Shown in pieces: positions 3,425 through 20,767 of a stretch of DNA of 21,452 nucleotides; position 1 is the stretch's first letter; each line of letters opens with the position of its first letter. Position numbers and translations under genes: made by a program. The stretch comes from a virus, in the IMG/VR virus record IMGVR_UViG_3300021477_000113, positions 1-21,452 of that record. One strand, 5' to 3'. The notes beneath the pieces are model-generated. The model was not told the DNA's origin and ran no database searches. It saw only the letters and a program-made list of their open reading frames with translations.

Positions 3425-3622
3425 CTATCTCCGTGGGACAAAATCCGTCGGCGGCAGCATCCCGACTAGGAAGTAAATCAGCCAAATGCAGACCACGATG
3501 ATAATGACTACGCGGATGATGCGCGCGATAGTCGGATCCATCGGGATCTGAGAAATCCCCCACAATACCAATCCGACGATCAAGAGCACTACGATTAGCT
3601 GAATCAGGAAAGCAGGAAACAT
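3425..3622 (-). CDS. Two-helix small membrane protein, candidate holin
   Basis: 65 aa with two hydrophobic helices, about residues 5-23 and 36-55, joined by a short polar loop (SQIPMDPTIARIIR). The C-terminal tail is short and ends in Arg-Arg. The helix-loop pattern with PMDPTIARIIR is like very short two-helix proteins common in bacterial genomes and prophages. It begins 12 bases after the stop of the SleB-type hydrolase on the same strand. A membrane protein next to a cell-wall hydrolase in a phage suggests a holin, though here it follows the hydrolase. A plain small envelope protein is the alternative. Confidence 0.6.
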   Translation of the reverse strand: MFPAFLIQLIVVLLIVGLVLWGISQIPMDPTIARIIRVVIIIVVCIWLIYFLVGMLPPTDFVPRR

Positions 3623-3634
3623 GCTTCCATCGTA

Positions 3635-4033
3635 CTACAGCTTGTAAAACCGGAACGGCCCAATAATGACGGTTATTTTCTCTGGGTCGGCCCAGCGCGG
3701 CAGCATTCCGGCAGGCTCGGACTCATAGCTATTCGCTCCCTGCGTGGGGTCCGCAGTCAACGGCATGGTGGCCACGTCGCAGCAATCCTGCCACGCCTCC
3801 CAATCCTGGACATTGCTGGGTACCGGGAAAAGTACGGCATTGGGATCGCCGGCGTTGAAGCTGGAGAATTGGCGCGGCTGCAGAATTACTCCTGGGATGG
3901 TTTTCGGCCATCGATGTTCGGCGTCAGTTGAACGGTTGCGGATCACCGCCGCTACGGCCGCACGCGCTGCCTGTGACTGTCCGCGGACCTCTCTCCAGAG
4001 GCAAAGCGAAAGTAGGAATTGTTCATAGATCAT
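3635..4033 (-). CDS. SleB-type cell-wall hydrolase, probable endolysin
   Basis: 132 aa from the ATG at 4033. A longer frame runs to 4195, but it overlaps the next + strand gene and its extra N-terminus is Arg/Pro/His-rich and unlike the family. The pattern REVRGQSQAARAAVAAVIRN at the N-terminus, followed by PRQFSSFN and the C-terminal WADPEKITVIIGPFRFYK, matches the SleB/Hydrolase_2 family, which cleaves glycan strands of peptidoglycan; the Glu in REVRG (residue 14) is the likely catalytic acid. The length is that of the bare catalytic domain, with no wall-binding domain and no signal peptide, so release by a holin would be expected. It probably acts in host lysis. It lies opposite to all surrounding head genes. 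Confidence 0.82.
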   Translation of the reverse strand: MIYEQFLLSLCLWREVRGQSQAARAAVAAVIRNRSTDAEHRWPKTIPGVILQPRQFSSFNAGDPNAVLFPVPSNVQDWEAWQDCCDVATMPLTADPTQGANSYESEPAGMLPRWADPEKITVIIGPFRFYKL

Positions 4034-4040
4034 GGTGTCG

Positions 4041-4069
4041 ATTTTAACCCGATCTTGCAATTTCCACAA
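4041..4069 (-). promoter_or_regulatory. Possible promoter for the minus-strand lysis pair
   Basis: On the minus strand, TTGTGG (4064-4069) and TAAAAT (4041-4046) are separated by 17 bases. The -35 match is weak. Transcription would start almost at the ATG at 4033, so the message would be nearly leaderless. Only 59 bases separate the two divergent starts (4033 and 4093), so any promoter for either strand has to lie here or inside the flanking genes. Confidence 0.25.
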
Positions 4070-4092
4070 AAACGTAGTATCCTCCCGAACAG

Positions 4093-5430
4093 ATGGCAGG
4101 CGTATCTGTAGGTATTGGGGATGTCGGTTCGGCCACGGGGGGTATGCCCGTAGGTGGTAGCGATGCCGAACTAGGATCCCTCTTAGGCGATGCATTCGAT
4201 TCTGCTACGGGCGGCGAAACTCTCGAAGCAGGCGGCGAAGCGGCCCCTGCCGGGGAATCAGGTTCCGAAGGTTCGCAGCAGCCGTTCGAAGCGCCTATCG
4301 ATACTCCCGTCGGCGAAGCGCCTACCGTACAGGCGGAAGCTATCCCATCGGACGTGCCGTGGAAACTGGCGCCAGATGGGCAGTCCTACGTGCTTCCCAA
4401 GGCGGAACTTCCCAAAGTTACCAACGCGCTGAAGTATTCCGAGTCGGTTGGCCAGATTTTTGCCAATCAGATGGAAGCGCAAAACGCCGCGATACAGGCC
4501 GGCGATATGCGCACAATGTTCAATGACTGGCATTTCGGTACGGAAGAATCCCTGAAAAGCGTGATGTCTCACCTGTCCGGCGCAAACCATCCGGACCCAG
4601 CCACGCGCGCCTCTTACCAGCGATCGTTTACCAAAATGGCGCAGATGGCGCCAGATATGTTGCGGCAGATCAACCCGCAGGCATATAGCCAGTTTGTTTC
4701 CTCGATGGGAAAGTCCTTGACGGCGCAGATGTACGAAAAAGCTGCGCAGACTCAAAACCCACAGGATTTACTCGATGCGCAGTCGATGGACTGGGCGCTG
4801 ACTGGGCAGTATCAGAAGGAACTTCCCAAGGCGGACCCTCAAGCCCAGCAACGCAGCCAATTCGAGCAGCGGGAGAGAGATTTCTACGCCAGGCAGGACG
4901 CCGCACTCAAGCGCGAGGTAGTAAACTTCAACAATACTGCCGTCGAGGGTGCCAAATTCAACCAACTATCATCCAGAATCGACGCCTTATTGGCTCCCGT
5001 AAAGGGAAAATTCAACGAAGTCGCGTATGCCGACCTAAAGGCCGGTATACAGCGCGAAGCGATCGATTCTCTGATGAAATCCACCGATCCTGCCATGCAG
5101 TCATGGTTTACTGAGCATCGCCAAAATTTTGATCAACTGATGGCCGATTATCGCCACACTTGGACGCAGGGTTCTCCCGGCAAGGGATTGCAGCCCCGCA
5201 TCCAAGCATATATCAACGATTTTCTTTCGCGCGCATCGCGCGTACTGCCCGCAATCGCGCAAAAGCGCGTTAACGCCACTACCCAAGCCCGTCTCAGCCG
5301 CTCCGCTCCCGCTGCTAAACCAGCCGGAACGAGCCGCCCCGCACCGGCCCCGAGTAATGGTCAGCCGACAGGACGTATGAGCAGCGATGAATGGGACAAA
5401 CAGTGGGCGGAGGCAACTGCGGTGCGTTGA
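4093..5430 (+). CDS. Scaffold-like head assembly protein
   Basis: 445 aa, directly upstream of the capsid-like gene, where short-tailed phages commonly place the scaffold that shapes the procapsid. The first 100 residues are acidic, Gly/Ala/Pro-rich and low in complexity, followed by a long, highly helical and Gln-rich middle (about 115-395, for example QMEAQNAAIQAGDMRTMFND) and a Pro/Ala-rich linker. The charged C-terminus (SSDEWDKQWAEA) is the sort of helical tail that binds capsid in known scaffolds. There are no cysteines and no catalytic motif. The family cannot be identified from sequence alone; the call rests on position and composition. Confidence 0.6.
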   Translation: MAGVSVGIGDVGSATGGMPVGGSDAELGSLLGDAFDSATGGETLEAGGEAAPAGESGSEGSQQPFEAPIDTPVGEAPTVQAEAIPSDVPWKLAPDGQSYVLPKAELPKVTNALKYSESVGQIFANQMEAQNAAIQAGDMRTMFNDWHFGTEESLKSVMSHLSGANHPDPATRASYQRSFTKMAQMAPDMLRQINPQAYSQFVSSMGKSLTAQMYEKAAQTQNPQDLLDAQSMDWALTGQYQKELPKADPQAQQRSQFEQRERDFYARQDAALKREVVNFNNTAVEGAKFNQLSSRIDALLAPVKGKFNEVAYADLKAGIQREAIDSLMKSTDPAMQSWFTEHRQNFDQLMADYRHTWTQGSPGKGLQPRIQAYINDFLSRASRVLPAIAQKRVNATTQARLSRSAPAAKPAGTSRPAPAPSNGQPTGRMSSDEWDKQWAEATAVR

Positions 5431-7287: not shown

Positions 7288-7842
7288 ATGCGCGGAATAG
7301 TTCTATTCTCGCTGCTAGCGGCTCCGCTGTTCTCCCAGGGTCAGGGGCAGGCCGTCAACCAAGTTGGCGGATCTCCCCCTAACTCCGTGGTCCAGCAGCT
7401 ATTTTACTCTGGATCTAATCTGATCTATGTTTGCAATGCGCCGGCATATTCAAAGCTGTCGACGTTCTACATTTCCAGCGGCACGCTAACCAACGTGGTT
7501 GTTTCCGGTGGAACTGGTACGATAACGTTCTCCTCAACTTCCTATCTTTGGCAGGGAGCGCAGATAACCTTGGCTGGGTCGGCCACTACGGCCCTGAACG
7601 GCACGTATAAGGTGACTGCCGTATCGGGGTCGACGGCTACGATAACAACATCAGCGGCTAATGGCACGTACACGGACGCTACATTGACGTTATCCACCAG
7701 GGCTCCTCTGCTGAATGACCACGTATGGGCCATCCAGGAGTTCGTATACGCCTCTTCAGTGCTCACGGGGACATATTGGGCTGGTACGCCATCCGTAACG
7801 CCTTCCAGCGGTCTGCAATGCTCAAATGGGGCTAATTTCTGA
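7288..7842 (+). CDS. Beta-rich protein with N-terminal signal peptide
   Basis: 184 aa. Residues 1-16 (MRGIVLFSLLAAPLFS) form an Arg plus hydrophobic stretch ending in a possible signal peptidase I site before Gln-17; the -3 Leu is not ideal. The rest is Thr/Ser/Gly-rich beta structure, with a segment around residues 95-135 (SATTALNGTYKVTAVSGSTA) of the type found in phage tail and fibre proteins. There are two cysteines. It starts one base after the previous stop and shares one base with the next gene (TGATG), so it belongs to the head operon. An exported protein in this position is unexpected. Confidence 0.6.
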   Translation: MRGIVLFSLLAAPLFSQGQGQAVNQVGGSPPNSVVQQLFYSGSNLIYVCNAPAYSKLSTFYISSGTLTNVVVSGGTGTITFSSTSYLWQGAQITLAGSATTALNGTYKVTAVSGSTATITTSAANGTYTDATLTLSTRAPLLNDHVWAIQEFVYASSVLTGTYWAGTPSVTPSSGLQCSNGANF

Positions 7843-8537
7843 TGGATGCCTTACAGTTGCACGGATTAAACGAACTGCTCGGTCGCGAGCTTGGGCGCTA
7901 TTCGGATGGGCGCCCTATTTTTTCCTGGAAGCATTCGGATAAATTATTCTGGCCGGCGTTTAATTCCGGGAATACGGAGCGGAAGGCGCGCGAGTTTTCC
8001 GTGCCGCTCGTTGGTGGGGGGGGAGCGGTTACCTGCATCGAGGAAATGACGGTTCCCGTCTATCGACGAGACCGGCAGGTAGCACGTTCCGCATGGTACA
8101 TGACGAAGCTGCTGACGCCGGAACAGCTCATCTGGGGATGGATTGGCAAGCATGGCGATCCGACGCCTCAAGGCCGCGCACCATCACATGATGCACTGAT
8201 GGAAATCTGGAATAACCGGTTCCCCGGTGCGGATTTTCCGGCGAAGGGATGGAGGGTGCCCACAGATGCATGGCTGCCGCGGTCTCCCGGAGAGACCGCC
8301 GAACCAAATCTTCCAGATACCGAGGATTTCATCGCGCAGGTACGCGAACAAACGCGGCTGTCGTTCGCGTTGAGGCTTGAGGACATGACGCAATACGAAG
8401 TTCGCAAGGAAGACGCCACTAACAAGGAAATAGAGGCTGCGGTGCGAGACAGCTTCCCGGCATTCCTCAACCCCGTACCCGGCAAGCGCAGCAATTTCGT
8501 TTCGATGCCGTGGAGTAGGAAGGACAGGTTAAACTAA
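7842..8537 (+). CDS. Conserved-looking phage protein of unknown function
   Basis: 231 aa, translationally coupled to the preceding gene by a TGATG overlap. Mixed alpha/beta and rich in Trp and Arg, with no signal peptide, membrane helix or zinc motif. The C-terminal third is charged and helical (EDFIAQVREQTRLSFALR). A run of eight G (8016-8023) encodes Gly-Gly-Gly near residues 59-62 and is a slippage-prone site, but the frame stays open through it. A neck or internal virion role is possible from position only. Confidence 0.6.
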   Translation: MDALQLHGLNELLGRELGRYSDGRPIFSWKHSDKLFWPAFNSGNTERKAREFSVPLVGGGGAVTCIEEMTVPVYRRDRQVARSAWYMTKLLTPEQLIWGWIGKHGDPTPQGRAPSHDALMEIWNNRFPGADFPAKGWRVPTDAWLPRSPGETAEPNLPDTEDFIAQVREQTRLSFALRLEDMTQYEVRKEDATNKEIEAAVRDSFPAFLNPVPGKRSNFVSMPWSRKDRLN

Positions 8538-8873
8538 ATGATACAAACAAATCAACAAATCAATGAACCCACCCTAACGGGCCTAGTTCAACAAATTCAG
8601 AATCACATGGCGCTGGCAGAGCAGCGAGTCGCGATCTTACGCGGACATCTGTGGGGAGAGGGAGAGGATGGCCCCAATCGCCCAATGCCAACGAGCGTGC
8701 GCGGTATGATCGACGACATCGGCGCTCGGTTGTGCTGCCTTTGTGGAGAACTGGCCACAATCAACTCGCGTGTTGGCTGCACTCCGGAACCAATTATGCC
8801 CGCGCCTCAATCTATGGAGCCCTACCAAGTCGGTATCCAGACCTGCGGACAATTCAGCTCTCCGCAAAGGTAA
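8538..8873 (+). CDS. Small hypothetical protein
   Basis: 111 aa, whose ATG follows the previous stop with no gap; AGGACAGG at 8521-8528 can serve as ribosome binding site. The N-terminal half is helical (LTGLVQQIQNHMALAEQRVA) and might oligomerise. CCLC near residue 58 and two further cysteines do not form a clear zinc site. Not recognised. Confidence 0.5.
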   Translation: MIQTNQQINEPTLTGLVQQIQNHMALAEQRVAILRGHLWGEGEDGPNRPMPTSVRGMIDDIGARLCCLCGELATINSRVGCTPEPIMPAPQSMEPYQVGIQTCGQFSSPQR

Positions 8874-8876
8874 CCT

Positions 8877-9602
8877 ATGGCTCAATATATACCCGACGTT
8901 CGATTCATCGCCAGCATCTACCCGGGCCAGTTGCCAACGATCCGGCGCCATTATGGCCCCAGCCGGCAAAGCGAGGGGCTCGGCGCGCAGCGGTCTACGG
9001 CGTTTACCCTTGATCCCGTACCGCGCGGCAAAAAGCCTTTCGTGATGGCACTTTACGATTCCTTCGAGAACGTGCTCGACATCGTGGCGCTGAGCTCTCT
9101 GGGAAACAACAGTGCGCAGAAACCTCGGCTGCCTAAGCCAGTTCCGGTGGAGTCTATCGAAGCTGATATCCTCAAGGAATGGACCGGCGGGTTATACAAC
9201 GTCCCGCAGGGAGCCGCACCCGGCGTCATCGGGATCCGCCCCATGAAGGTGGAACTCAAAAAGTTCGAGGATACTGGCACGCTTCCCGGCGCCGCAGTGG
9301 ATGAAGTCCAGCGGATGACCGAAATGCAGACGCTGTATTTCGAGTACCTCTTCACCGAGGGGGAGAGACTCCACAAGCAAAATAATTGGAAGGAAATCAC
9401 GTCTACCATGCGACTCGCCGCAGAATGGCTGGGATTCGAGCGGGAATGGAGCCATCGGGCGATCGCGCGCGATAGCGGTCCGTGCCCTTGGTGCCAGTCG
9501 ATAATTCCCAATATAGCGATTGTCTGCGGGACGTGCGGCAAGCAGGTTCGCGAGACGCCGGCGAATCTGGCGCACTTGGAAAGACTGAGGCCTACGGCAT
9601 AA
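8877..9602 (+). CDS. Unknown phage protein with C-terminal zinc ribbon
   Basis: 241 aa. The first 50 residues are basic and aromatic (RFIASIYPGQLPTIRRHYG). The centre is helical, with the stretch MQTLYFEYLFTEGERLHKQN. Near the C-terminus, Cys-203, Cys-206, Cys-217 and Cys-220 form a CxxC-10-CxxC zinc ribbon (CPWC and CGTC). It begins 3 bases after the previous stop and ends one base before the next gene, which also has a four-Cys zinc motif. The pattern resembles widespread phage proteins of unknown role. Zinc binding is well supported by the spacing; function is not known. Confidence 0.62.
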   Translation: MAQYIPDVRFIASIYPGQLPTIRRHYGPSRQSEGLGAQRSTAFTLDPVPRGKKPFVMALYDSFENVLDIVALSSLGNNSAQKPRLPKPVPVESIEADILKEWTGGLYNVPQGAAPGVIGIRPMKVELKKFEDTGTLPGAAVDEVQRMTEMQTLYFEYLFTEGERLHKQNNWKEITSTMRLAAEWLGFEREWSHRAIARDSGPCPWCQSIIPNIAIVCGTCGKQVRETPANLAHLERLRPTA

Positions 9603-9603
9603 T

Positions 9604-9906
9604 ATGCTCTGCCCAAACTGCGACAGCATCTTGAACGCGATCGGATGTCAGGCTTGCGGCTGGAAATACGGGCAACCGCACACCCGTGATGAGCGGGTGT
9701 TTCCATTTCGCGCGAATGCGGAGTATCCCGAAGCCACAAGGGGAGTTGTACGGTTCGCTAACCGTCCCGATGTTCCGGACCTGCCGCACCATGAGGAAGA
9801 ACTGGAGCCGCCTCCGCCGCCAGTTCCTGCCCCTGCTCCGGAAACTCGTCCAGAGACTCGTCCAACACCCAAACGTCCGTCGGACTCCAAAGTGACCGTA
9901 CAGTGA
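9604..9906 (+). CDS. Small zinc-ribbon protein with proline-rich tail
   Basis: 100 aa. The N-terminus has CPNC (Cys-3, Cys-6) and CQAC (Cys-15, Cys-18), a compact four-Cys zinc ribbon. The last 40 residues are Pro/Glu-rich (EPPPPPVPAPAPETRP) and probably unstructured. It lies 1 base after the zinc-ribbon gene at 8877 and 1 base before the adaptor-like gene, so the three are expressed together. It may bridge to a partner protein; this is inference only. Confidence 0.6.
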   Translation: MLCPNCDSILNAIGCQACGWKYGQPHTRDERVFPFRANAEYPEATRGVVRFANRPDVPDLPHHEEELEPPPPPVPAPAPETRPETRPTPKRPSDSKVTVQ

Positions 9907-9907
9907 C

Positions 9908-10894
9908 ATGGCCGAATGCACAGTCCAGAATGTTTTCGACGACGTTCGAAGCCTGCTATCTGATACCCAGATAGCAGGCGGTGAAATTTACACCAACAAT
10001 TATCTGCTGACTGGCTATGCATCGGGAGGCGTAGTTGGAAGCGGCTCACTATTGGGCGAGCCGTACCGCACGATGTTCAGTAAACTGACCGGCGGCAGCA
10101 AACGTGTCCGGCCAACGGCATACATTGTGCTTCCGCCGAATACCACAGTAGTTATCCCAACCACCTACAATATTGTGGACTTTTCCGAGCCCGAGATGAT
10201 CGAGGAGTGCGCGGCTACAAATGCGATCGCGATATTGAGCACGGACACGTCAACGCCAATCAACGTAACTACTGTGGCGCCGCATAATCTCGGCCCGAAC
10301 GGCAGCATGTCAGAGGGAATCGTTTCGGGTATCGCTGGTACGCCGGCTCCATGGGGTAATTGGTTCGCCACGGTCACCGGGACATCGACATTTTCCCTCA
10401 ACGGGAGCGCCTCAGACGGGAATCCGGGAACGAGCGGGTTTTTCTATCCGGCCAGCAATCAGCCGTTCACAGAAGTGTTCCCTACTGACTTTCCCGCCGC
10501 TCTGGATGGATTCCCGCAGTCAACTCTCGGAAATTACCTGTGGGCGCAGGGACGGCTGACATTCCGCGGCGCAACGGGATCGGTGCTTCTGCGGATCACC
10601 TACTATGCGTCGGGGACAGCGCCAACTAACCCCAATTACGTGATCTGGATCGACAATTGCCGCGACTTCCTCGCGCATGCGACTGCATGTAACGCGGCCA
10701 GGTCCAAGCAGTGGTTTTCGATGTATGAGCACCTTCGCAACAAGGCTTATGGAGATCCCAGCCATCCGGAAGAATTGAGCCTATTGGATTTGTTTTACAA
10801 CGTGCAAGTAATGGCAGACCAGCGCGGCCCGTCGCGTAGGCAAAGACCGTTTAGGGACAGGAGATACAAATGGGGCGCTTATTTGCTTGGGTGA
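9908..10894 (+). CDS. Probable head-to-tail adaptor or neck protein
   Basis: 328 aa. The N-terminus ([16 protein letters not shown], then [13 protein letters not shown] and [11 protein letters not shown]) has the helix-loop-helix pattern of head-to-tail adaptor proteins of short-tailed phages, and a beta-rich insertion fills residues 95-190. The C-terminal third is helical with Arg-rich end ([16 protein letters not shown]). Place is right for a neck protein: after head genes and before fibres. Its start holds a perfect 12-base inverted repeat (9951-9979). It overlaps the next gene by 25 bases. The family call is by pattern and position, not by a profile match. Confidence 0.5.
9951..9979 (+). 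repeat. Perfect 12-base inverted repeat inside the adaptor gene start
   Basis: GCCTGCTATCTG (9951-9962) and CAGATAGCAGGC (9968-9979) are perfect reverse complements separated by ATACC. In RNA this is a 12-bp stem with a 5-base loop, beginning 43 bases into the gene at 9908, in codons for [10 protein letters not shown]. No T-run follows on either strand, so it is not a classic terminator. Confidence 0.85.
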
Positions 10895-13464
10895 TATTCG
10901 CGTGGATGGTCGCTGGCGTAACTTATGCGCAAAATTGCACGCCGCACTTCGACCCTTTATTGGGGCGGGTTACTTGCCCGCCGGCGAATGGCCCAACGGG
11001 CGCGACTGGGCCGACCGGTCCTAGCGGTGGACCAAGCGGCCCCACTGGACCTACGGGACCGACTGGAGCAGGTGCTACGGGAGCCACGGGAGTTACCGGA
11101 CCCACAGGGATAACCGGGCCTACAGGAATTACTGGGGCAACCGGTGTTACAGGACCTACTGGTCTGACGGGCAGCACTGGGGCCAGCACAACGGCGTATA
11201 CCTTGTGCGCTAGCGGGTGCTCAACCACTGTGCCGTCTAGCGGGTCAGTAATTCTAGCCACTTCTCATGGACAGGGGATAAATGCGTTTGCCTATGCGAC
11301 TAATTCGAGCGGCAACCAGATGTTCCCGCCGAATTTTTCTGTATCCAATTCAAGCGGTAATTTAACTATCACCTATGTTACCGCCCCAACGCGGATAGCC
11401 GTATTCGGGGGAACCGCTGCCACTACCCCTACCCCTGATTGGATAAATGCAACCACCATTGCAGGGGTAGATCCAACGGGCGCTACTGATTCGGCGGCCG
11501 GTCTGCAAACATGGTCAACGGCTAACGGAACCGCAGCGGCTACATTGTATTTCCCTGCCGGAACCTACTACTTCAATTCCGCCACCGGGCCGAATGGGAC
11601 GGAGGAATGCGTCCGGTTCTCGGGCGCAAATGTTTCGATAGTGGGGGACGGCGGCGGTAGAACCATTTTCACCGACAATGCCACTCCAGTTTGTCTGTCA
11701 GATATCGGCTGGGGAGAAGGAACCACTACAAATTACAGCTACGAGACTGATACAGGCTATGCTGTCACGGCTTCTACCGCAGTCGTAGGAACGACCTATG
11801 TAACGCTGACAACCGCAGCGCAAGCATCCAATTTCCCGCTGGGCCAGTACGTTTTCGTGCGCGGTGCCGTATGCTCTTTTTGTGGGGGCGGACAGTATTA
11901 CGGCGAGTTGAACCAAGTGGCGATTGCTGGCAATACAGGTACAGGTGTTGTGGGCCTTGCATGGCCACTGTCGCAGGACTTCTCCCAGCAAGCCGGAGTT
12001 CAACTCAACGTCGTATCGTCCTCGGAAATCATCAAGGATGTCAGTGTCTCCGGCATCACATGGAATTTCCACGACCAAGCCTTTGTAGCCAGTCAAATGT
12101 TGCGAATGAAGATCTTCGACAACGTGTTCACTTATCTCGGAAGCACCCCTGGCCAAGAGATGAGCCAACTCAACCAGCATCGTAGTACCGAATTTTTCCG
12201 CAACACGGTCAATATCCCGGGCGGGATTGCTTTGGATATGGAGCGCAACCCGACGGATTGGAAAGTTCACGATAATACTCTGAACGGAGGCAGCGGCGCT
12301 TTAGCTGGAGAGGCGGGTGCCAAGATTTCAGTTCACGGGAACACCATCCAATGCACCGGAACATCTTATCTCGCGTGCGTTAGCGTCAACACATACAATA
12401 ACCTGATCGACCACAACCAGGTAACGTTTTATTACACGGGCTCTGGTCCTGGAGCGGCAATCGCCGATAGTGATGAGGGCGGAAACATCTCAACCAACAC
12501 ACTCATCAGCAATAATCTGATCACATCTGGCGGATCTGGAGCAGCAGCGGCGCCGGCCGAGGATCTTCAGTCCTCATCCTCTACTTCGGCAAATAACATC
12601 GTGGTATCAAAATACCGCGGAATCTCCTTGAATGTGAACAAAGGCGCGGGGGGGATTAAGTCCTATAACGACACGGTAACGATCACCTCGAATGCCGATG
12701 TAGGCTGCTTGCTCATCCAGGGGGCCTACACTCACGCCGTAGTGGTAGACGGTCTGACCTGTTCCTCGCTGGCAGGCCCTAGCACGACAGGCACGGCTAG
12801 CAGCGGCAGCACGGCCCTGACAGTGGCCTCGGGCACGGGAACGGCTAACGGCTATGCCGTCTATGGCGCTGGCATACCACCTAACACAACGATCGCATCG
12901 GGTGGCGGAACTACATCCATAACGTTGTCGCAGAACACTACGGCAGCGCTAAGCACTACTCCGGTATCATTCGTTGTGTTGGTTGCCCCTACGGCAATCT
13001 GGATAGCTGATAACGGACAGCAAACCGGACCGACGCAGGCTACCCTAACCAATATCACTGGCACCAATTTGGCCGCAGGCATAAAGATCGTCAACAATGC
13101 GCATGACTATCCGAATATTGGAGCGTTGACTTTTAATAACGTAACGACGCAATTCACGACCTATCCAGGGCTATCAGCAGCAGGGACATCAGGAGGGGCT
13201 TACTGTTCGGCATCCACCTCTGGAGTGTTAAAAACGCTCTCGTGCGTCCTATCTGGATACGCTCAGACTGGAAGCGCCCAAACCATCGCGTACTCTAATT
13301 TTTTCTCTACTGGATTCGTTTATAACCCGGCTCTTACGATAGCCGGAGGACCGACTGGATGTGGTACTTACGCTCCGACTGCGGGATCTACTACCGTACT
13401 AACTTTACCGGCAAACGCAGCCATGACTGCGGAGAATTGTAATTTTCTAGTGACTGGACAATAA
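10870..13464 (+). CDS. Exported-looking tail fibre with collagen-like repeats and beta-helix
   Basis: 864 aa. The ATG has AGGAG six bases upstream. Residues 1-20 ([20 protein letters not shown]) read as a Sec signal peptide with a good TYA/Q cleavage site. Residues 41-105 are collagen-like Gly-X-Thr repeats, with short breaks near 53 and 67. From about residue 190 ([17 protein letters not shown], then YFPAGTYYF) a pectate-lyase-like parallel beta-helix is likely, the fold of many receptor-binding or polysaccharide-degrading fibres. A small beta domain ([20 protein letters not shown]) is inserted near residues 640-700. About 16 cysteines. The gene lies at the tail-fibre position and overlaps the previous gene by 25 bases. 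Phage fibres normally have no signal peptide. Confidence 0.7.
10990..11184 (+). repeat. Collagen-like Gly-X-Thr repeat coding tract
   Basis: About 65 residues of repeats such as [11 protein letters not shown] and [13 protein letters not shown], coded by GC-rich 9- and 18-base units with many silent differences. Such tracts form trimeric triple helices in phage fibres. The open minus-strand frame over this stretch is only its shadow. Confidence 0.85.
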
Positions 13465-13465
13465 A

Positions 13466-15118
13466 ATGAAGCCACTCCTTTTGATGCTTGTTATTGCTAG
13501 TTGTTCTCTCGGACAAGCTCTCGGTCCAGTCAAGCCAGCTACCTACACCATCGCTGGGGGACTGCCGTCCGCATCAACTTGGAGTGGTGGGGAGATCCTT
13601 ATTACCGATGGAGCATCGCTTTGCGACGTGTCAACGGGGAGTGGTACTACCAGAGTTAAGGCCGCCAGTAACGGGACTATTTGGGTGACTCCCAATTGCG
13701 GTTCTGGTGGCAGCGGTAGTGGGCTAGGATCGATCGCTAATTGTGCATTAACAATCACCACAGGAACGGTGACGGCTGCAGCCACGGCGACAACGTTGCT
13801 ACCATGCACTGCACGTTTCGGTAATCAAGTTTTTACATTCACTGGACCCGTTTCCTATCCAATCACTGGATCTTCTACGGGAACAGCCTATTTTTATATC
13901 GATAACACAGGAAGTTTCGATGCTGCGGTGGGATCTGCTAGTGGTATTACATGTTCCGGAGGGTCATGCGCAGTTAACTCCGGCACTGGGATGCCGAATG
14001 GAAACACCGGAATCGCTATTTGGAGTGTAACATTCAATAGTGGGTCATGGAATACAGGCGGGGGAACGGCATTCATTGCCTCAGCCAGTACTAATCCAAT
14101 GGCTTGCGGAACTGGTTTGATCCAAACTGTAACGCAGGCATTGACGACGTGCTCACTTGATACAACCTTCCTAACCCTTACAACTACTGGTAGTAGCGGA
14201 GCAGCCACCTATAACTCTTCCACAGCAACATTGAATATTCCTCAGTATAGTGGCGGTGGTAGTTCCGCATGGAGTTCAATCACTAACGCTGCTGGCGCTT
14301 TGACGCTGGCGAATGCAGCATTTGGCACAACGTTCAACCAAACCTCCGCAGTCAACTGGACTTGGGCCAACACTACAGCGGCCACGTCTGGAGCAGCACA
14401 AGCAAGCCCAATAATAAATCTCACTGGGACTGGATGGACAGGATCGGCCAGCACGGCAGCCACGACCACTCTTCAACAAGGGTGGAGCGGCGTTAGTACG
14501 CCTAATTTTTTAATAACTGGTCCTGGAGTTCCGTCCTCGACTGGAAACAATTCTATAGCCACAGTTAATGGATTTGGCATAGTCAATTTTCAGTATGCCG
14601 TCCAAGCTTCTGCCGGTTCGGCCAATGGATTTAGCGGGTTCAACGTCTCGAATCTTGGGATAGTCTCCAATGGAGGAAGCGGAGCTGCGGGGAATGTTAT
14701 GCAACTCGGAGATCAGAACAGCGGCCACGCCTTTGGTGACTGGGCTTTATCCCATATTATCGGCAGCAGCTCGGCACCGACTGGGGTAGTTGGCGCGGCT
14801 GGGGGAACTTCGCCGACATGCTGTACGATCACCGGCAATGATAGCGCCTTCAATATGGCATTGACTACCGGAACTCCAGCGGCTACCAGTGGAACAATAA
14901 TGACAGTCACATTTAATCTGGGATTCACCAATATCGCAGGAACTGCAACGGCCCCTCACTGCGTGTTTTCTCCAACAGTCGGTCCAGTTGCGGGACAAGC
15001 CACAGATGTTAGGGGAACTACGACAGCTACTACTTTTGTGCTGACAGCGGGCACGGCTGGATTGACTGCGGCCACTCCTTATGCTTGGGACGTAATTTGT
15101 TTCGGAACTAACCAGTGA
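13466..15118 (+). CDS. Exported-looking fibre-like protein
   Basis: 550 aa, starting one base after the previous stop; no strong ribosome binding site is seen. The N-terminus (MKPLLLMLVIASCSLGQA) is a signal peptide; either SLG/Q cleavage or a lipoprotein site (IAS/C, Cys-13) is possible. The body is Gly/Ser/Thr/Ala-rich beta structure. Motifs such as ATYNSSTATLNIPQYSGGG and a C-terminal domain (about 455-550: MTVTFNLGFTN to FVLTAGTAGLTAATPYAWDV) resemble the tip domain of phage fibres. About 13 cysteines, including CC at 451-452. It shares four bases with the next gene. Confidence 0.62.
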   Translation: MKPLLLMLVIASCSLGQALGPVKPATYTIAGGLPSASTWSGGEILITDGASLCDVSTGSGTTRVKAASNGTIWVTPNCGSGGSGSGLGSIANCALTITTGTVTAAATATTLLPCTARFGNQVFTFTGPVSYPITGSSTGTAYFYIDNTGSFDAAVGSASGITCSGGSCAVNSGTGMPNGNTGIAIWSVTFNSGSWNTGGGTAFIASASTNPMACGTGLIQTVTQALTTCSLDTTFLTLTTTGSSGAATYNSSTATLNIPQYSGGGSSAWSSITNAAGALTLANAAFGTTFNQTSAVNWTWANTTAATSGAAQASPIINLTGTGWTGSASTAATTTLQQGWSGVSTPNFLITGPGVPSSTGNNSIATVNGFGIVNFQYAVQASAGSANGFSGFNVSNLGIVSNGGSGAAGNVMQLGDQNSGHAFGDWALSHIIGSSSAPTGVVGAAGGTSPTCCTITGNDSAFNMALTTGTPAATSGTIMTVTFNLGFTNIAGTATAPHCVFSPTVGPVAGQATDVRGTTTATTFVLTAGTAGLTAATPYAWDVICFGTNQ

Positions 15119-18100
15119 AGATATTGTATTTTTTGATATTTCCAGGAATTGTGTTTGGGCAATATACATTGAACGGAGTTACGACCACTCCGACTCAAGC
15201 GATTATCATCTACAATCCCGGCACTTCTTCCGTATGCTCTATCGCAGTAACGAACGTGGCGACCGGCGCGACTGCGGCTGACGTGAATGCCTCCCTCGGC
15301 GGAGATTTCACTGGCGCGAATCTCGACAGCCGATCAGCCGGCACATCTTCACTGGGAAACAATCGCACATTTGTGGTCGGCCAGCCGCTAGTGCGGGGAT
15401 TCGATTCGAGTGGTATAGGTCACGTGCGCGCACTTCAGGCGCTTACGCAATATCAGGGGCAACTCACTTGCGGCAGCACAGTTGAGCCAGCGTTTACTTT
15501 CACTACCCAGAACGTACCGGTCGGGAATACCCACAACAATGGTTTGGCTGTTGATCGGAATCATCCCGGCCAATATGCCCTAGATACGATCAACTGGACA
15601 AACCAGAACCAGGTAATCATTGATCCCGTTACGGGCATATCAGCACAGCGCGCTACGGTGCTTGCTGACACGGCATCGAGTAGCCAATCCTTCGTGAGCG
15701 CATTCGCTGGATCAGGATGGGCCACGCCATCTCCCACTGGAACGAACACGCTCACTGGCGCTGGATCGGTAAGCAACGCGCTATTCTTGCGTGCTGATGG
15801 TTTTTTAATTACGGGAGGTCCTACCTATACCAGATCGACAGGAAATTCCTTTGATTGGATCAAAATCTCATATACCGGAGTGAGTTCATCCTCCAGCGGT
15901 CAGAGCCTGATAACCTGCATCACGGTGAATGGCGTTAACTGCGCAACTAGCGCGCAAAATACGCAAGCAATCACTACATCAAGTTCGTCCTATGCGGTCG
16001 GCACTGGAGCGCTGATGGATTGTCTTCAGAATAGCGGCCCGTGCCCCGTAAGTTCGGTAGATGTATCGACTGTTACGGGAACGGCAAGTTATGTGAGCGG
16101 AACGGGTGTATTAACCTCGGCTACGGGATTCCCATTTATCCTCAAGTGGGTAGCGGGATCACTAATTACAGTAAATTCTGTAGTCTGTACTATCGGGAGC
16201 GTGCAGAGCGAGCTTCAAATAACCCTGTCCTCGTGCCCAGCGGTTACGAGCGGAACGTATCCCTTCACTGCTAATAATTTCGGCATTCTGGCGTGGTGTA
16301 CAGGAAGTTGCGTTATCGGTCCCACCACATACACCTACGGAACCGCGCCGATGGTTCAGATGAATCCCCAGGGAGCTCCGACCTATACGACTAGCCCCGT
16401 GGTTACCGTTGGTGGCGTGAAAGGCTATTATTCCTTCGTGGAAAGCGACTTGTATTTCTATCCCTTATCCGGCGGAAAGCCTACGCCGAAGGGGCAAGTA
16501 ATCTGGGATACGAGCGGTGGCTTGGGACCGGCAAACCAAGACTGCGGATCAGAGAAGACTTATCAGTGGGACCCGTCGATAACGGGAGCGATGTACTGCG
16601 GGTTTGTTTATTTCGGTGGTGGCGTATACATCGTGCGAGCTCAACTAACTAACGACACCGGGTTGACCGGAACTGCCGGTACGCCAATTCCGACTTGTCC
16701 CCAATCAGGCCTATGCATGGCATTTACGCAAATGTCATCGACGGACGTTTATTCAGATATGGTGGCATTTAATTCAGCGCTTTCTGCAATCTCGTTCACT
16801 CCAGGAAATGGACCGGCAGGGCCGACTGGGATCGGAGGAATTTATATTGGGGTATATTTCTCTACGCAGCAAAATTACTACGGAGGCGTAGGAGCTTATA
16901 CCCTAGGGACAGATATTCCTCGCACTCCTGCTGGTACGGATTCCGGTAGTTTCAAAATAATCGCTGCAATGCCTTCATATACTCAGCCGCTCTGTACCTG
17001 GTGCAACATTCACACGCCGTTCGCGGCTAGCAGCGGAGCTCCAGGATGGATTACTTGGTTAGCCGATGGAGACGGCCCCACTACGCAGCAATATACGGCT
17101 ACCCTGACATCCACTACCCAATTAGGGACATCGCTCATCACTTGTCCGAGCAATCCATTCAGCACGAGTAGCGCGACTAATCCATTTCCTGCGAATGGAA
17201 CGAATTGCAGTTCAATCACGATAACTAGTGATCCAGTTAACAGTGTCCCATCCACGCTGCAACATATTCAAGTAGGAGATGTGATGTTCATTGACCATAA
17301 TGGACCCACTCAGGAGATGCTGCGAGTAGTGGCGATGACTAGCACAACCGCCATGACCGTGCAGCGCGGGTACTTAACAACTAGCGGAGGAGTTTTCAAT
17401 CACACCGGAACATCTTTACAGATGGTCTGCGGGAGCACCGTCCAAGCCGCTCTTTTCAATGGAGACCCAGCCGGTCAGCCAATGTGGAATTTCTTGGCGG
17501 ACCCAAAAGGTACGAACGCAGGTTACACAACTATTTTCCCCGCAATCTACTCATTCGGATCACATGGCAATGATTATTTATCGTATCAGTCATATACCAT
17601 CCAAGCGGCAGGCGGTAACCTTCCTACCGCTAAGTTATGCCCTACAGGATATGGGTATTGCTACGCCGTATTTCCAGGAGAGTACGGGTCAGCATTCCTA
17701 GCGAACACGTCGGCTCCGAATGCCATTTCAATATCCCCCACATTTGCAGGCGTCCTACCTGCTATAAGCCAACCAAACCAAGTTGATTCCCACGCTGGGC
17801 CAGCGCCTATTGGGGCGACTTGGGTGATGGACGCAAGGCCAATGCAGGGAGAAGCCACGGGGCAAAATCCCAATGCCTGCTCCTCCACCAACCCATTCAC
17901 CAGCGTGACCGGGTTTCTTTGGAAATGCGCGGCGACCAACGTTTCTCCTGCTATGAATCGGAAAATTATCTCAACCCTGGCGTACGTTGGCCGTGCCGCT
18001 CTGGTTGATGTCAGCGGCCCATCCTCAGTGATCGGAGGAACTTCCGGGGACAATTACAAATATTGTATTGCAAATGCTGTCAATGAGTGTGTTGCCGGGT

Positions 18101-18774
18101 CGGCCATCGGCGATGTTTATGTTAACGCTCCATTCGTTTCATATCCGTACTGCTACAATCCTAATCCAAATGATCCAGCATCCCAGACAGACGACACCAA
18201 TATGATCTGCGTAGGAGACATTGGCGCATACACCCAGAACATTACCCAACAGGGAGTAAGTACAAATGATGTGACGGGAGCCACGGGCAGGGCACTGGGG
18301 AGCGCCCATAATATATATAATCAGGAGTCAACTTTTTGGACTTCCGGTAACGTTCCGAGTGGCTTGTTCTCTACCAACTGGGTGAGATGGGGAGATCAGT
18401 TAGCTTCAGCACTCACCACTAATTTCCTCCCACCGTTCCCGCTGCCGGATTCCGTCAATCGGGCTACCTTCGTTCCCGTAAGTATAACCATGAACCCGCC
18501 GGCAGGAATAACAGGGGAAACTGTGCAGTTCTGGTATCCGGAGCTCGGTGGTTGCACGTCGCGGCAGGAAAACTGCGTGGCCAGCAGCGCGACAATCAAC
18601 CAAACAACGCCATTCCAGTGGGCTTCGGAGACTATTACGCCGCTGTCCTGCACTGGTAACTGCACCATTCAAGTCCCCGGGATCAGCGGGCACGTTGTTT
18701 GGGTACAGCCTCAGTATTGGGCCAGCGGCGTTAAGGTTTCTACGGGAGCGGTTCAGCAGGTGGTGGTGCCGTAG
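15115..18774 (+). CDS. Giant cysteine-rich exported protein, possible adhesin or receptor-binding protein
   Basis: 1219 aa, starting at GTG in a GTGA overlap with the previous stop. No earlier start is possible in this frame without entering the upstream gene, and no in-frame ATG lies near it downstream. Residues 1-15 (MKILYFLIFPGIVFG) are a signal peptide with a VFG/Q site. The rest is beta-rich, Thr/Ser/Gly-rich, and has about 31 cysteines, many in close pairs (for example ITCITVNGVNC and CIANAVNEC), as expected for disulfide-bonded secreted proteins. A segment near residues 470-510 (VIWDTSGGLGPANQDC to TYQWDPSITGAMYC) hints at repeated blades, but I cannot assign a fold. Last of three coupled fibre-region genes. 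Confidence 0.6.
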   Translation: MKILYFLIFPGIVFGQYTLNGVTTTPTQAIIIYNPGTSSVCSIAVTNVATGATAADVNASLGGDFTGANLDSRSAGTSSLGNNRTFVVGQPLVRGFDSSGIGHVRALQALTQYQGQLTCGSTVEPAFTFTTQNVPVGNTHNNGLAVDRNHPGQYALDTINWTNQNQVIIDPVTGISAQRATVLADTASSSQSFVSAFAGSGWATPSPTGTNTLTGAGSVSNALFLRADGFLITGGPTYTRSTGNSFDWIKISYTGVSSSSSGQSLITCITVNGVNCATSAQNTQAITTSSSSYAVGTGALMDCLQNSGPCPVSSVDVSTVTGTASYVSGTGVLTSATGFPFILKWVAGSLITVNSVVCTIGSVQSELQITLSSCPAVTSGTYPFTANNFGILAWCTGSCVIGPTTYTYGTAPMVQMNPQGAPTYTTSPVVTVGGVKGYYSFVESDLYFYPLSGGKPTPKGQVIWDTSGGLGPANQDCGSEKTYQWDPSITGAMYCGFVYFGGGVYIVRAQLTNDTGLTGTAGTPIPTCPQSGLCMAFTQMSSTDVYSDMVAFNSALSAISFTPGNGPAGPTGIGGIYIGVYFSTQQNYYGGVGAYTLGTDIPRTPAGTDSGSFKIIAAMPSYTQPLCTWCNIHTPFAASSGAPGWITWLADGDGPTTQQYTATLTSTTQLGTSLITCPSNPFSTSSATNPFPANGTNCSSITITSDPVNSVPSTLQHIQVGDVMFIDHNGPTQEMLRVVAMTSTTAMTVQRGYLTTSGGVFNHTGTSLQMVCGSTVQAALFNGDPAGQPMWNFLADPKGTNAGYTTIFPAIYSFGSHGNDYLSYQSYTIQAAGGNLPTAKLCPTGYGYCYAVFPGEYGSAFLANTSAPNAISISPTFAGVLPAISQPNQVDSHAGPAPIGATWVMDARPMQGEATGQNPNACSSTNPFTSVTGFLWKCAATNVSPAMNRKIISTLAYVGRAALVDVSGPSSVIGGTSGDNYKYCIANAVNECVAGSAIGDVYVNAPFVSYPYCYNPNPNDPASQTDDTNMICVGDIGAYTQNITQQGVSTNDVTGATGRALGSAHNIYNQESTFWTSGNVPSGLFSTNWVRWGDQLASALTTNFLPPFPLPDSVNRATFVPVSITMNPPAGITGETVQFWYPELGGCTSRQENCVASSATINQTTPFQWASETITPLSCTGNCTIQVPGISGHVVWVQPQYWASGVKVSTGAVQQVVVP

Positions 18775-18962
18775 CGCTTTGGAGGGCTTTGGATGCTGGA
18801 ATATCTTGACCCTCGATAGCGAACAATGGCAGTAGCCTGCTGCGCCGCATTGTAGCCGCCATTGTGTAGAGAATGGCCAAGCGATACGGAGGCCCAATTT
18901 TCTGCTCCTCTCGCAGACTGTGTGTTTGCAATGTTGTATAAACCCGATAGGCCAGTATTCAT
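18753..18962 (-). CDS. Possible small ORF coupled to the PEP-CTERM gene
   Basis: 69 aa, starting within the stop of the PEP-CTERM gene (ATGA overlap, 18959-18962) and ending 22 bases inside the 3' end of the converging 1219-aa gene. Composition is Ser/Gly/Asn/Ala/Tyr-rich with no membrane helix. A second minus-strand frame is also open here (18740-18931), so coding cannot be decided by eye. Otherwise the 184 bases between the two converging genes would be empty. Confidence 0.3.
   Translation of the reverse strand: MNTGLSGLYNIANTQSARGAENWASVSLGHSLHNGGYNAAQQATAIVRYRGSRYSSIQSPPKRYGTTTC
18823..18865. repeat. Inverted repeat between converging genes
   Basis: ACAATGGC (18823-18830) and GCCATTGT (18858-18865) can pair over a 27-base loop, which itself can form a short stem (CAGTA with TGCTG). 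No T-run follows, so a terminator role is uncertain. Confidence 0.35.
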
Positions 18963-19573
18963 CCCCGTTTCCTCCGCACCACTCCCAGCCCCACCAGCGC
19001 CGCGCCGATCATAACTCCAGCCGCTGGCTCGGGCGTGCTCGCCGGCGCCGGAAAACCCGTCTGTGCGATGTATGACGGCGACACGCCGTTATTCACTAGC
19101 GGACTGAATACGCTGAAGTCGGCCGCATCAAGCTGGCCGGAATTAACCACGGCTTCGGCGCCAAGAATGTCCTGATAGGCTCCGCCGGTCAGTGGGATGC
19201 CGCTCTGTGGGTTCATCACGTCCCAGATGGCTATCTGAACGTTCTGGGAAGGCGCTTCTTCAGTAAGCGCTGCGGCCACCTCGAAGTCATACAAAGAGTT
19301 GGGCTCGCAGCAGTCCACGGCATACTGCGCCGCTTCAGTCAAGCTGAGATCGACCATCGGCCAGTTCCAGGGCAGCGGCAGCACCGCTCCGAGGGAATAC
19401 TCGTACCCCTCGACCGTCTGGTAATTTCCCGTACCGTACTGAATAGTAAGCGATTCTGGACCCACAGGGAAAATACCGATCTGTCCAGAGTCGCTGTTCA
19501 CTGTCACGCCTACTATTTGGCTCGCGCTGCACGTGATCGCGAACAGAAATTCCGCTAACGTTAGTTTTTTCAT
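18959..19573 (-). CDS. PEP-CTERM sorting-signal surface protein
   Basis: 204 aa with a signal peptide (MKKLTLAEFLFAITCSAS) and a C-terminal PEP-CTERM tag at residues 179-204: Pro-Glu-Pro at 181-183, a hydrophobic helix (AAGVMIGAALVGLGVV) and a basic end (RRKRG). In known systems an exosortase cuts at this tag after export and the protein goes to the surface or exopolysaccharide. The body is acidic, with NVQIAIWDVMN near residues 111-121, a motif I recall from other PEP-CTERM proteins. No exosortase gene is in the window, so the host must supply it. GAGG and GGAGGG lie just upstream of the ATG. The gene is opposite to the structural genes, as expected of a moron (an independently expressed cargo gene). 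Confidence 0.85.
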   Translation of the reverse strand: MKKLTLAEFLFAITCSASQIVGVTVNSDSGQIGIFPVGPESLTIQYGTGNYQTVEGYEYSLGAVLPLPWNWPMVDLSLTEAAQYAVDCCEPNSLYDFEVAAALTEEAPSQNVQIAIWDVMNPQSGIPLTGGAYQDILGAEAVVNSGQLDAADFSVFSPLVNNGVSPSYIAQTGFPAPASTPEPAAGVMIGAALVGLGVVRRKRG

Positions 19574-20551: not shown

Positions 20552-20767
20552 ATGGGAAAAGTTATTTTTCGCATGCTCGTAGCGCTACTTATTATCAGCG
20601 CGATGTATCTCTCTGCGCAGTATTCTTCCGAGCCTCGGCCGACGGTTATAAAGGTCGGCGAAGGGCTTGTCATGTCGGTAACGGACAAGGGCGTATACAC
20701 GATTAGCATTGACCGAGAATACATTCAAGCGCTTTCGAGAGGAGCGCTGCAAGGTACGGTAAAGTGA
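20552..20767 (+). CDS. Small exported or membrane-anchored protein
   Basis: 71 aa from the ATG at 20552. A longer frame (from 20264) is only an extension over the preceding gene. Residues 1-22 (MGKVIFRMLVALLIISAMYL) are a signal peptide or anchor with a possible LSA/Q site at residues 21-24. The mature part is short and beta-rich (VIKVGEGLVMSVTDKGVYTI). Its stop overlaps the next start (GTGA). Confidence 0.55.
   Translation: MGKVIFRMLVALLIISAMYLSAQYSSEPRPTVIKVGEGLVMSVTDKGVYTISIDREYIQALSRGALQGTVK

Follow-up and report, generated by a model that had tools for sequence, protein, structure and literature searches.

Phages of soil Acidobacteriota, cultured isolates among them, encode large spike-like or adhesin-like proteins of the tail region as what their sequences predict to be signal-peptide precursors with paired cysteines. 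These genes form a recognizable class: the products are 450–1500 aa long and combine a Sec-type signal (often cut before Gln) with 1–3% Cys, mostly even mature Cys counts and short Cys pairs, and the rest of the virion proteins in these phages are mostly poor in Cys and free of signals. The class is carried by 64–65 kb podovirus-like relatives of the fragment described below, by an unrelated 78 kb phage, by three phage regions in Acidobacteriota assemblies and by three Tunturiibacter isolates. The observation is not peculiar to one contig, and it is at odds with the textbook picture, in which phage tails are built entirely in the reducing cytoplasm.

The fragment and its relatives

The window, that is the whole stretch of DNA analysed, is a 21,452-base viral fragment from IMG/VR that looks like a podovirus-like structural region by its ORF layout and family matches. 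The portal (identified by a PHROG portal match) is followed by a probable scaffold and capsid and by small genes, after which come a 328 aa adaptor-like protein and three giant genes. Gene calls on this and the other metagenomic contigs are longest ORFs, and genes are named here by their first coordinate. The features considered are:

7288–7842, plus strand: 184 aa predicted secreted protein, downstream of the capsid gene; signal 7288–7335, mature start at Gln17, 2 Cys, β-rich
9908–10894, plus strand: conserved 328 aa protein, by position alone a putative head-tail adaptor; lies ahead of the cassette, whose first gene (10870) it overlaps by 25 bases
10870–13464, plus strand: 864 aa spike-like protein; signal 10870–10929, 16 Cys in 8 close pairs
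13466–15118, plus strand: 550 aa predicted secreted protein, in the A position of an A+B pair; signal 13466–13513, 12 mature Cys
15115–18774, plus strand: 1219 aa predicted secreted protein of the B family; GTG start, signal 15115–15159, 31 Cys
20552–20767, plus strand: 71 aa protein with a signal ending LSA/Q and no Cys, in a separate small-gene cluster

The capsid and portal show no detectable similarity to any phage record; the capsid recurs in nine contigs at 78–91% identity. Two of these are 64–65 kb long and have identical ends (123 and 39 bases), so that they are probably complete genomes. An Acidobacteriaceae MAG includes a 5.5 kb contig that bears the portal, which weakly points to a host. 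The putative adaptor is 70–87% identical across full-length relatives and 72% identical over a partial match in a further one (G005), and neither relatives nor a family match were found for the 20552 protein.

Signal peptides

Signal-like N-termini on 7288, 10870, 13466, 15115 and 20552, as put forward in the original prediction, were recovered by inspection and with a rule-based detector. Up to the predicted cleavage they read MRGIVLFSLLAAPLFS/Q (7288), MKPLLLMLVIASCSLG/Q (13466), MKILYFLIFPGIVFG/Q (15115) and MGKVIFRMLVALLIISAMYLSA/Q (20552), with TYA/Q as the end of the 10870 signal, and they display the hallmarks of Sec export and signal peptidase I processing, namely a positive n-region, a hydrophobic h-region and small residues at -3/-1. 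The detector is a crude rule that considers n-region charge, a hydrophobic stretch and small residues at -3/-1, and was calibrated on shuffled N-termini and on five reference phages (T7, lambda, N4, crAss001 and epsilon15); shuffled N-termini from this window pass it at about 2% per ORF. Three of the seven window ORFs of at least 250 aa are positive, as are 22 of 163 large ORFs in ten acidobacterial-phage sets against 1 of 78 in the controls (Fisher p=0.0017), these being rough numbers, as the larger set includes some spurious frames and a few of the 22 matches, at distant alternative starts, are probably false. The single control match comes from T7, at an alternative start within the gene 19 product, and the control tail proteins are without signals. 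These controls, together with the signals in isolated phages (see below), lead us to reject chance hydrophobic N-termini as an explanation.

That wrongly called starts were an unlikely source of the signals had also been argued, and the alternatives indeed prove poor. The first in-frame start past the cleavage site lies at residue 34 (7288), 31 (10870), 55 (13466), 19 (15115) and 41 (20552), and a downstream start in 7288 or 10870 would remove conserved mature residues. Given these late starts, the loss of conserved residues and the presence of signals of the same type in the relatives, this artefact was rejected. A strong AGGAG motif precedes the 10870 start, and tail-region genes of isolated phages bear such signals at starts annotated by others. 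The 13466 product contains a lipobox-like IASC at residues 10–13, through which lipoprotein processing is possible; cleavage at SLG/Q fits as well.

Cysteine content and pairing

The counts of 16, 13 and 31 Cys reported for the three giant proteins, and of 2 for the capsid, are exact; one of the 13 in 13466 sits in the signal, leaving mature counts of 16, 12 and 31. Pairing was measured as the span of consecutive Cys pairs, observed against expected. It amounts to 113 against 401 in 10870 (p=0.001), 222 against 435 in 15115 (p=0.0005) and 113 against 249 in 13466 (p=0.02); the sequence sets being partly related, the p-values throughout are indicative, and the combined Fisher p of about 6e-20 for pairing is inflated by related sequences. 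Among control phage proteins with six or more Cys, 3 of 28 are paired at p<0.05. Mature Cys counts are even in 22 of 27 cases (p=0.0008), which is weaker evidence alone, 19 of the 28 controls also being even; five additional proteins, from Tunturi 4 and the G471 phage region (see below), have even counts too. A comparison of 15115 with the homologue from a host chromosome shows joint retention or loss of adjacent Cys slightly above expectation (p=0.047); the same comparison in 10870 is not significant (p=0.22).

Conservation of signal and mature protein

Identity over the signal is lower than over the mature N-terminus in each family: 0.31 versus 0.56 in the spike family, 0.35 versus 0.70 in the 10870 family and 0.39 versus 0.52 in the 7288 family. 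The 10870 protein consists of a signal, a conserved mature N-terminus, a collagen-like GPTGPTG repeat (about residues 41–105) and a β-strand-rich region. Behind a signal of 35% identity, members of its family retain the mature start Q(N)CTPxFDPLLG..TCPPA, with 70% identity over 20 residues; they differ in the stalk, which is exchanged, and agree to about 38% in the body. The 7288 family has a signal-type N-terminus in the window and in four relatives (G002, G003, G005 and G006), with a conserved mature part. In a third family, encoded upstream of the portal in the relatives, QQ[VI]DW[VIN]SQ[VI]RN stands right behind the signal, and the C-terminal body is exchanged. Comparison of 10870 with its counterpart in G002, and within the upstream spike family, reveals a constant N-terminal anchor and a variable C-terminal body, which by analogy would correspond to the usual layout of an anchor plus a binding domain.

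A homologue lacking the N-terminal segment had been named as evidence that would speak against export. One does exist, a 575 aa spike in G002 (17807–19534, minus strand; loci L015–L018) that has no signal and begins M-IDWVSEIRDKP; however, it contains only 4 Cys against 10–14 in the signal-bearing copies, and so strengthens the link between export and Cys. This single comparison falls short of proof, yet the outcome is the one expected from a functional link of that kind, and the signal-less spike and the signal-bearing copies provide a ready-made comparison pair.

Elsewhere the slot of the cassette is filled by a 467 aa repeat protein without a signal (L004, 15330–16733; L006, 11490–12878; G001, reversed, 50349–51755), which has no family match and is absent from G002; the window and the probably complete G002 have the secreted cassette in this slot. 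No close relatives of 10870 and 15115 were found in IMG/VR (with peptide patterns) or among annotated phages, and the relatives' upstream spike has no close match among annotated phages. Host genomes searched with the 10870 family returned mainly collagen-repeat matches, so that this spike is not demonstrated as a host protein. Its matches to tail-fibre families are likewise confined to the collagen stalk, and PDB sequence searches with the 10870 and 15115 profiles gave collagen-like or chance matches only. An AlphaFold model of 10870 from a two-row alignment (pLDDT 37) was discarded for fold; the 7288 model (pLDDT 60) matches viral fibre and baseplate proteins at a TM of about 0.35 and is not used as proof.

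The same gene class in other phages

The unrelated 78 kb phage (G010) sets signal-bearing, Cys-rich giants against Cys-free large proteins. The phage regions from Acidobacteriota assemblies (G238, G284 and contig C280 of G471) could be either prophages or free phages that were binned along with host sequence; the capsid and portal of C280 are homologous to those of Tunturi 1, and three proteins of the G471 phage region have even Cys counts of 12, 26 and 30.

The isolates carry the most weight; they are Tunturi 1 (PP887698), Tunturi 2 (PP885685) and Tunturi 4 (PP885687) (PMC11924767). In the podovirus Tunturi 1 the tail protein gp11 is followed by gp12, gp13, gp14 and gp17, with predicted mature N-termini QTAAYP, QTTGAP, TAYTV and QTCTQT. 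At the annotated start, three of the four fit the signal rule, and in gp14, the annotated tail spike, the signal lies about ten residues in. They contain 20, 10, 21 and 32 Cys respectively (20, 10, 20 and 32 in the mature forms), against 0–8 in the other checked proteins of at least 250 aa, and all are paired at p<0.01. Tunturi 2 has the same genes, and the siphovirus Tunturi 4 has two, gp113 and gp114, again with even counts (8 and 20). Tunturi 1 gp17 and Tunturi 4 gp114, both signal-bearing, have in common a 47%-identical secreted domain (L114, 19474–23028, and L117, 11019–13325), placed behind the signal in one and internally in the other, which suggests that receptor modules may be exchanged between morphotypes. 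The two proteins contain the extracellular-type domains choice-of-anchor Q, chitobiase C-terminal and Big_2, and gp114 also gave an Ig-like domain match in a PDB sequence search. Among the structural-region proteins checked in Tunturi 3, which has the same host strain as Tunturi 1 (Tunturiibacter psychrotolerans X5P2), there are no such genes, implying that export is no general need of phages on that host. The isolates with these genes are described as lytic, and the main text of that study does not mention signal peptides (PMC11924767). A search of the open-access literature turned up no publication describing signal-bearing tail proteins like these.

Relationship to host secreted proteins

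The 15115 product has a whole-length homologue in an Acidobacteriota genome, and belongs to a family, here termed B, whose host copies are 27–31% identical to it. Of 237 genomes from one Acidobacteriota family, the one to which that genome belongs, 56 encode B proteins, often in multiple copies, and full-length copies are mostly signal-bearing with about 20–38 Cys. In several genomes the B genes have ordinary chromosomal genes around them and are not part of a prophage, as on the single 6.69 Mb contig of G466, and they often stand beside what appear, by eye from the N-termini, to be polysaccharide-biosynthesis or glycosyltransferase genes. At roughly nine B loci a second gene, termed A and usually with a signal, lies directly upstream. 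A+B is an uncharacterised Cys-rich secreted two-gene unit, widespread in that one Acidobacteriota family (L087–L101, L053).

The phage pair resembles the chromosomal one in the full-length homology, signal and many Cys of 15115 and in the A-then-B order, 13466 lying directly upstream of 15115 with a signal and a 4-base overlap. It differs in belonging to a tail operon, and the similarity of 13466 to host A genes is weak and partial (E 6e-8). In a tree the phage 15115 copy is nested among host B proteins as sister to one on G471 contig C223 (100/100 for that pair); branches are long, and host-to-phage transfer would be the simplest reading. The phage region on contig C280 of G471 also carries a B-family member, so that exchange in both directions is possible.

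A proposed exported spike and adhesin cassette

We propose, with about half of our confidence behind it, that these genes form a cassette of Sec-exported, disulfide-stabilized spikes and adhesins, made late and drawn partly from the host secretome, the spike types of which dock on the tail after export or lysis. The products of 7288, 10870, 13466 and 15115 would be Sec-exported precursors, cut by signal peptidase in most cases just ahead of a Gln, and disulfides would form in the mature Cys-paired ectodomains once these are in the periplasm or outside. They would be produced late, alongside the virion, as a swappable set that binds or cuts the polysaccharide-rich Acidobacteriota surface, and at least some would have been recruited from the host's own secretome. 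The spike types (10870 and the relatives' QQVDWVSQVRNKP spikes) are most likely receptor-binding proteins, whose conserved mature N-terminus would attach them to the tail, either once exported or at lysis.

From the signals, the conservation pattern, the Cys pairing, the homology of 15115 to host secreted proteins and the presence of the class in isolated lytic phages we infer export, cleavage, disulfides and surface binding, with virion docking as the least certain step. Export with disulfide formation is strongly suggested by signals conserved in type across lineages, by paired Cys and by the Cys-poverty of the signal-less homologue, while a surface interaction would follow from the collagen stalk and the domain types of the Tunturi proteins. 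Docking of the spike type we place near the point of balance, perhaps slightly on the doubtful side of it, and that of 13466 and 15115 lower. It is suggested by the conserved mature N-termini, by the cassette replacing a non-signal tail-region gene and by the shortage of alternative spike candidates in G002. Against it speak the topology, export separating the proteins from cytoplasmic tail assembly, and the chromosomal relatives of 15115.

In a rival reading the proteins are exported but never become part of virions, serving in late infection as released or surface-bound depolymerases, adhesins or receptor decoys that open biofilm for the progeny or block superinfection. We consider this doubtful, though well worth keeping in mind. 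The mostly chromosomal B family of the hosts, with relatives outside prophages as in G466, would fit a free surface protein, the domains of Tunturi 1 gp17 and Tunturi 4 gp114 are typical of extracellular proteins, and signals ordinarily remove proteins from the compartment of virion assembly. Yet apart from its one signal-less spike the probably complete G002 has no obvious other spike candidate, the short conserved stretch that opens the mature proteins, ahead of exchanged bodies, suits a docking element, and unrelated phages have the genes at corresponding places within the tail operon. It is very unlikely that the hydrophobic N-termini are instead uncleaved anchors, retaining the proteins in the inner membrane or persisting intact in virions: most of the segments, at 15–20 hydrophobic residues, are long enough for this, but small residues at -3/-1 followed by Gln recur in unrelated proteins, conservation starts at that very Gln, and Cys pairing implies an oxidizing compartment.

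A lysogenic-conversion (moron) module that alters the surface of the lysogen, in the manner of lambda Lom, would account for the host secreted homologues of 15115 and for a moron-like PEP-CTERM gene on the opposite strand next door (18959–19573), but we rate it as highly improbable. The genes are packed in the late structural run (with a 25-base overlap, a 1-base gap and a 4-base overlap), and similar tail-region genes occur in isolates described as lytic (PMC11924767). There is no terminator-like pattern between 10700 and 11400 of the window, and no plus-strand promoter-like site matching the sigma-70 consensus, from which host promoters may differ, between 9931 and 20568; by this sequence evidence such overlapping, tightly packed genes do not display the transcription independent of virion genes that is a trait of the Lom type. 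Of the two readings in the original prediction, maturation of fibres in the host envelope is possible, and a surface or adhesin module expressed during lysogeny keeps its adhesin part for 13466 and 15115, the latter being homologous to chromosomal secreted proteins, while expression in lysogens is unsupported.

Comparison with known systems and implications

The known podovirus tailspikes and fibres (of the P22, K1F and epsilon15 type) to our knowledge fold in the cytoplasm without signal peptides. The window proteins resemble them in their tail-region genes, β-rich bodies, collagen-like stalk and constant N-terminus with a swapped C-terminus, and differ in bearing signals. With Tunturi 1, 2 and 4 the window shares large, signal-bearing, Cys-paired tail-region proteins, which in Tunturi 1 directly follow gp11, whereas its capsid and portal set it apart. 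Agrobacterium phage Milano is likewise a tailed phage with an extensive disulfide network in the virion, but its bonds link sheath and baseplate subunits, and protein export is not mentioned in the available extract of that paper (PMC10811340). Lambda Lom is also a signal-bearing protein encoded between tail genes, but it is an outer-membrane barrel expressed in lysogens (PMC12309495), whereas the window encodes a set of Cys-paired spikes.

More generally, we tentatively suggest, at somewhat less than even confidence, that tailed phages of Acidobacteriota may have Sec-exported spikes that become disulfide-bonded in the envelope and join the tail only at or after lysis, and may acquire new spikes straight from the secretome of the host. 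Should the proteins belong to the virion, the complete assembly of tailed phages in the reducing cytoplasm needs an exception, and phages have a route for turning host secreted proteins into host-range determinants with the export signal retained. If instead the proteins are secreted and stay free, several kilobases of the late operon in soil phages of a dominant bacterial phylum are given over to a secretome. Either outcome bears on phage infection of polysaccharide-coated soil bacteria, and with Tunturi 1, 2 and 4 and their hosts in culture the question is directly testable.

Other genes of the window

The product of the minus-strand PEP-CTERM gene that adjoins the cassette is 204 aa long; its start is signal-like, and the motif lies at its C-terminus, with a Pfam match just under the cut-off (E 0.0023). 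The gene is possibly a phage-borne moron specifying an exosortase-substrate-like protein. Within the structural run, also on the opposite strand, is a cell wall hydrolase (3425–4195, minus strand; Pfam Hydrolase_2, E 8e-12), whose 5' end as called overlaps the next gene; a small hydrophobic ORF that resembles a holin accompanies it. Two adjacent small proteins encoded at 8877–9906 have CxxC zinc-ribbon-like motifs with 4 Cys each, and are kept in the relatives.
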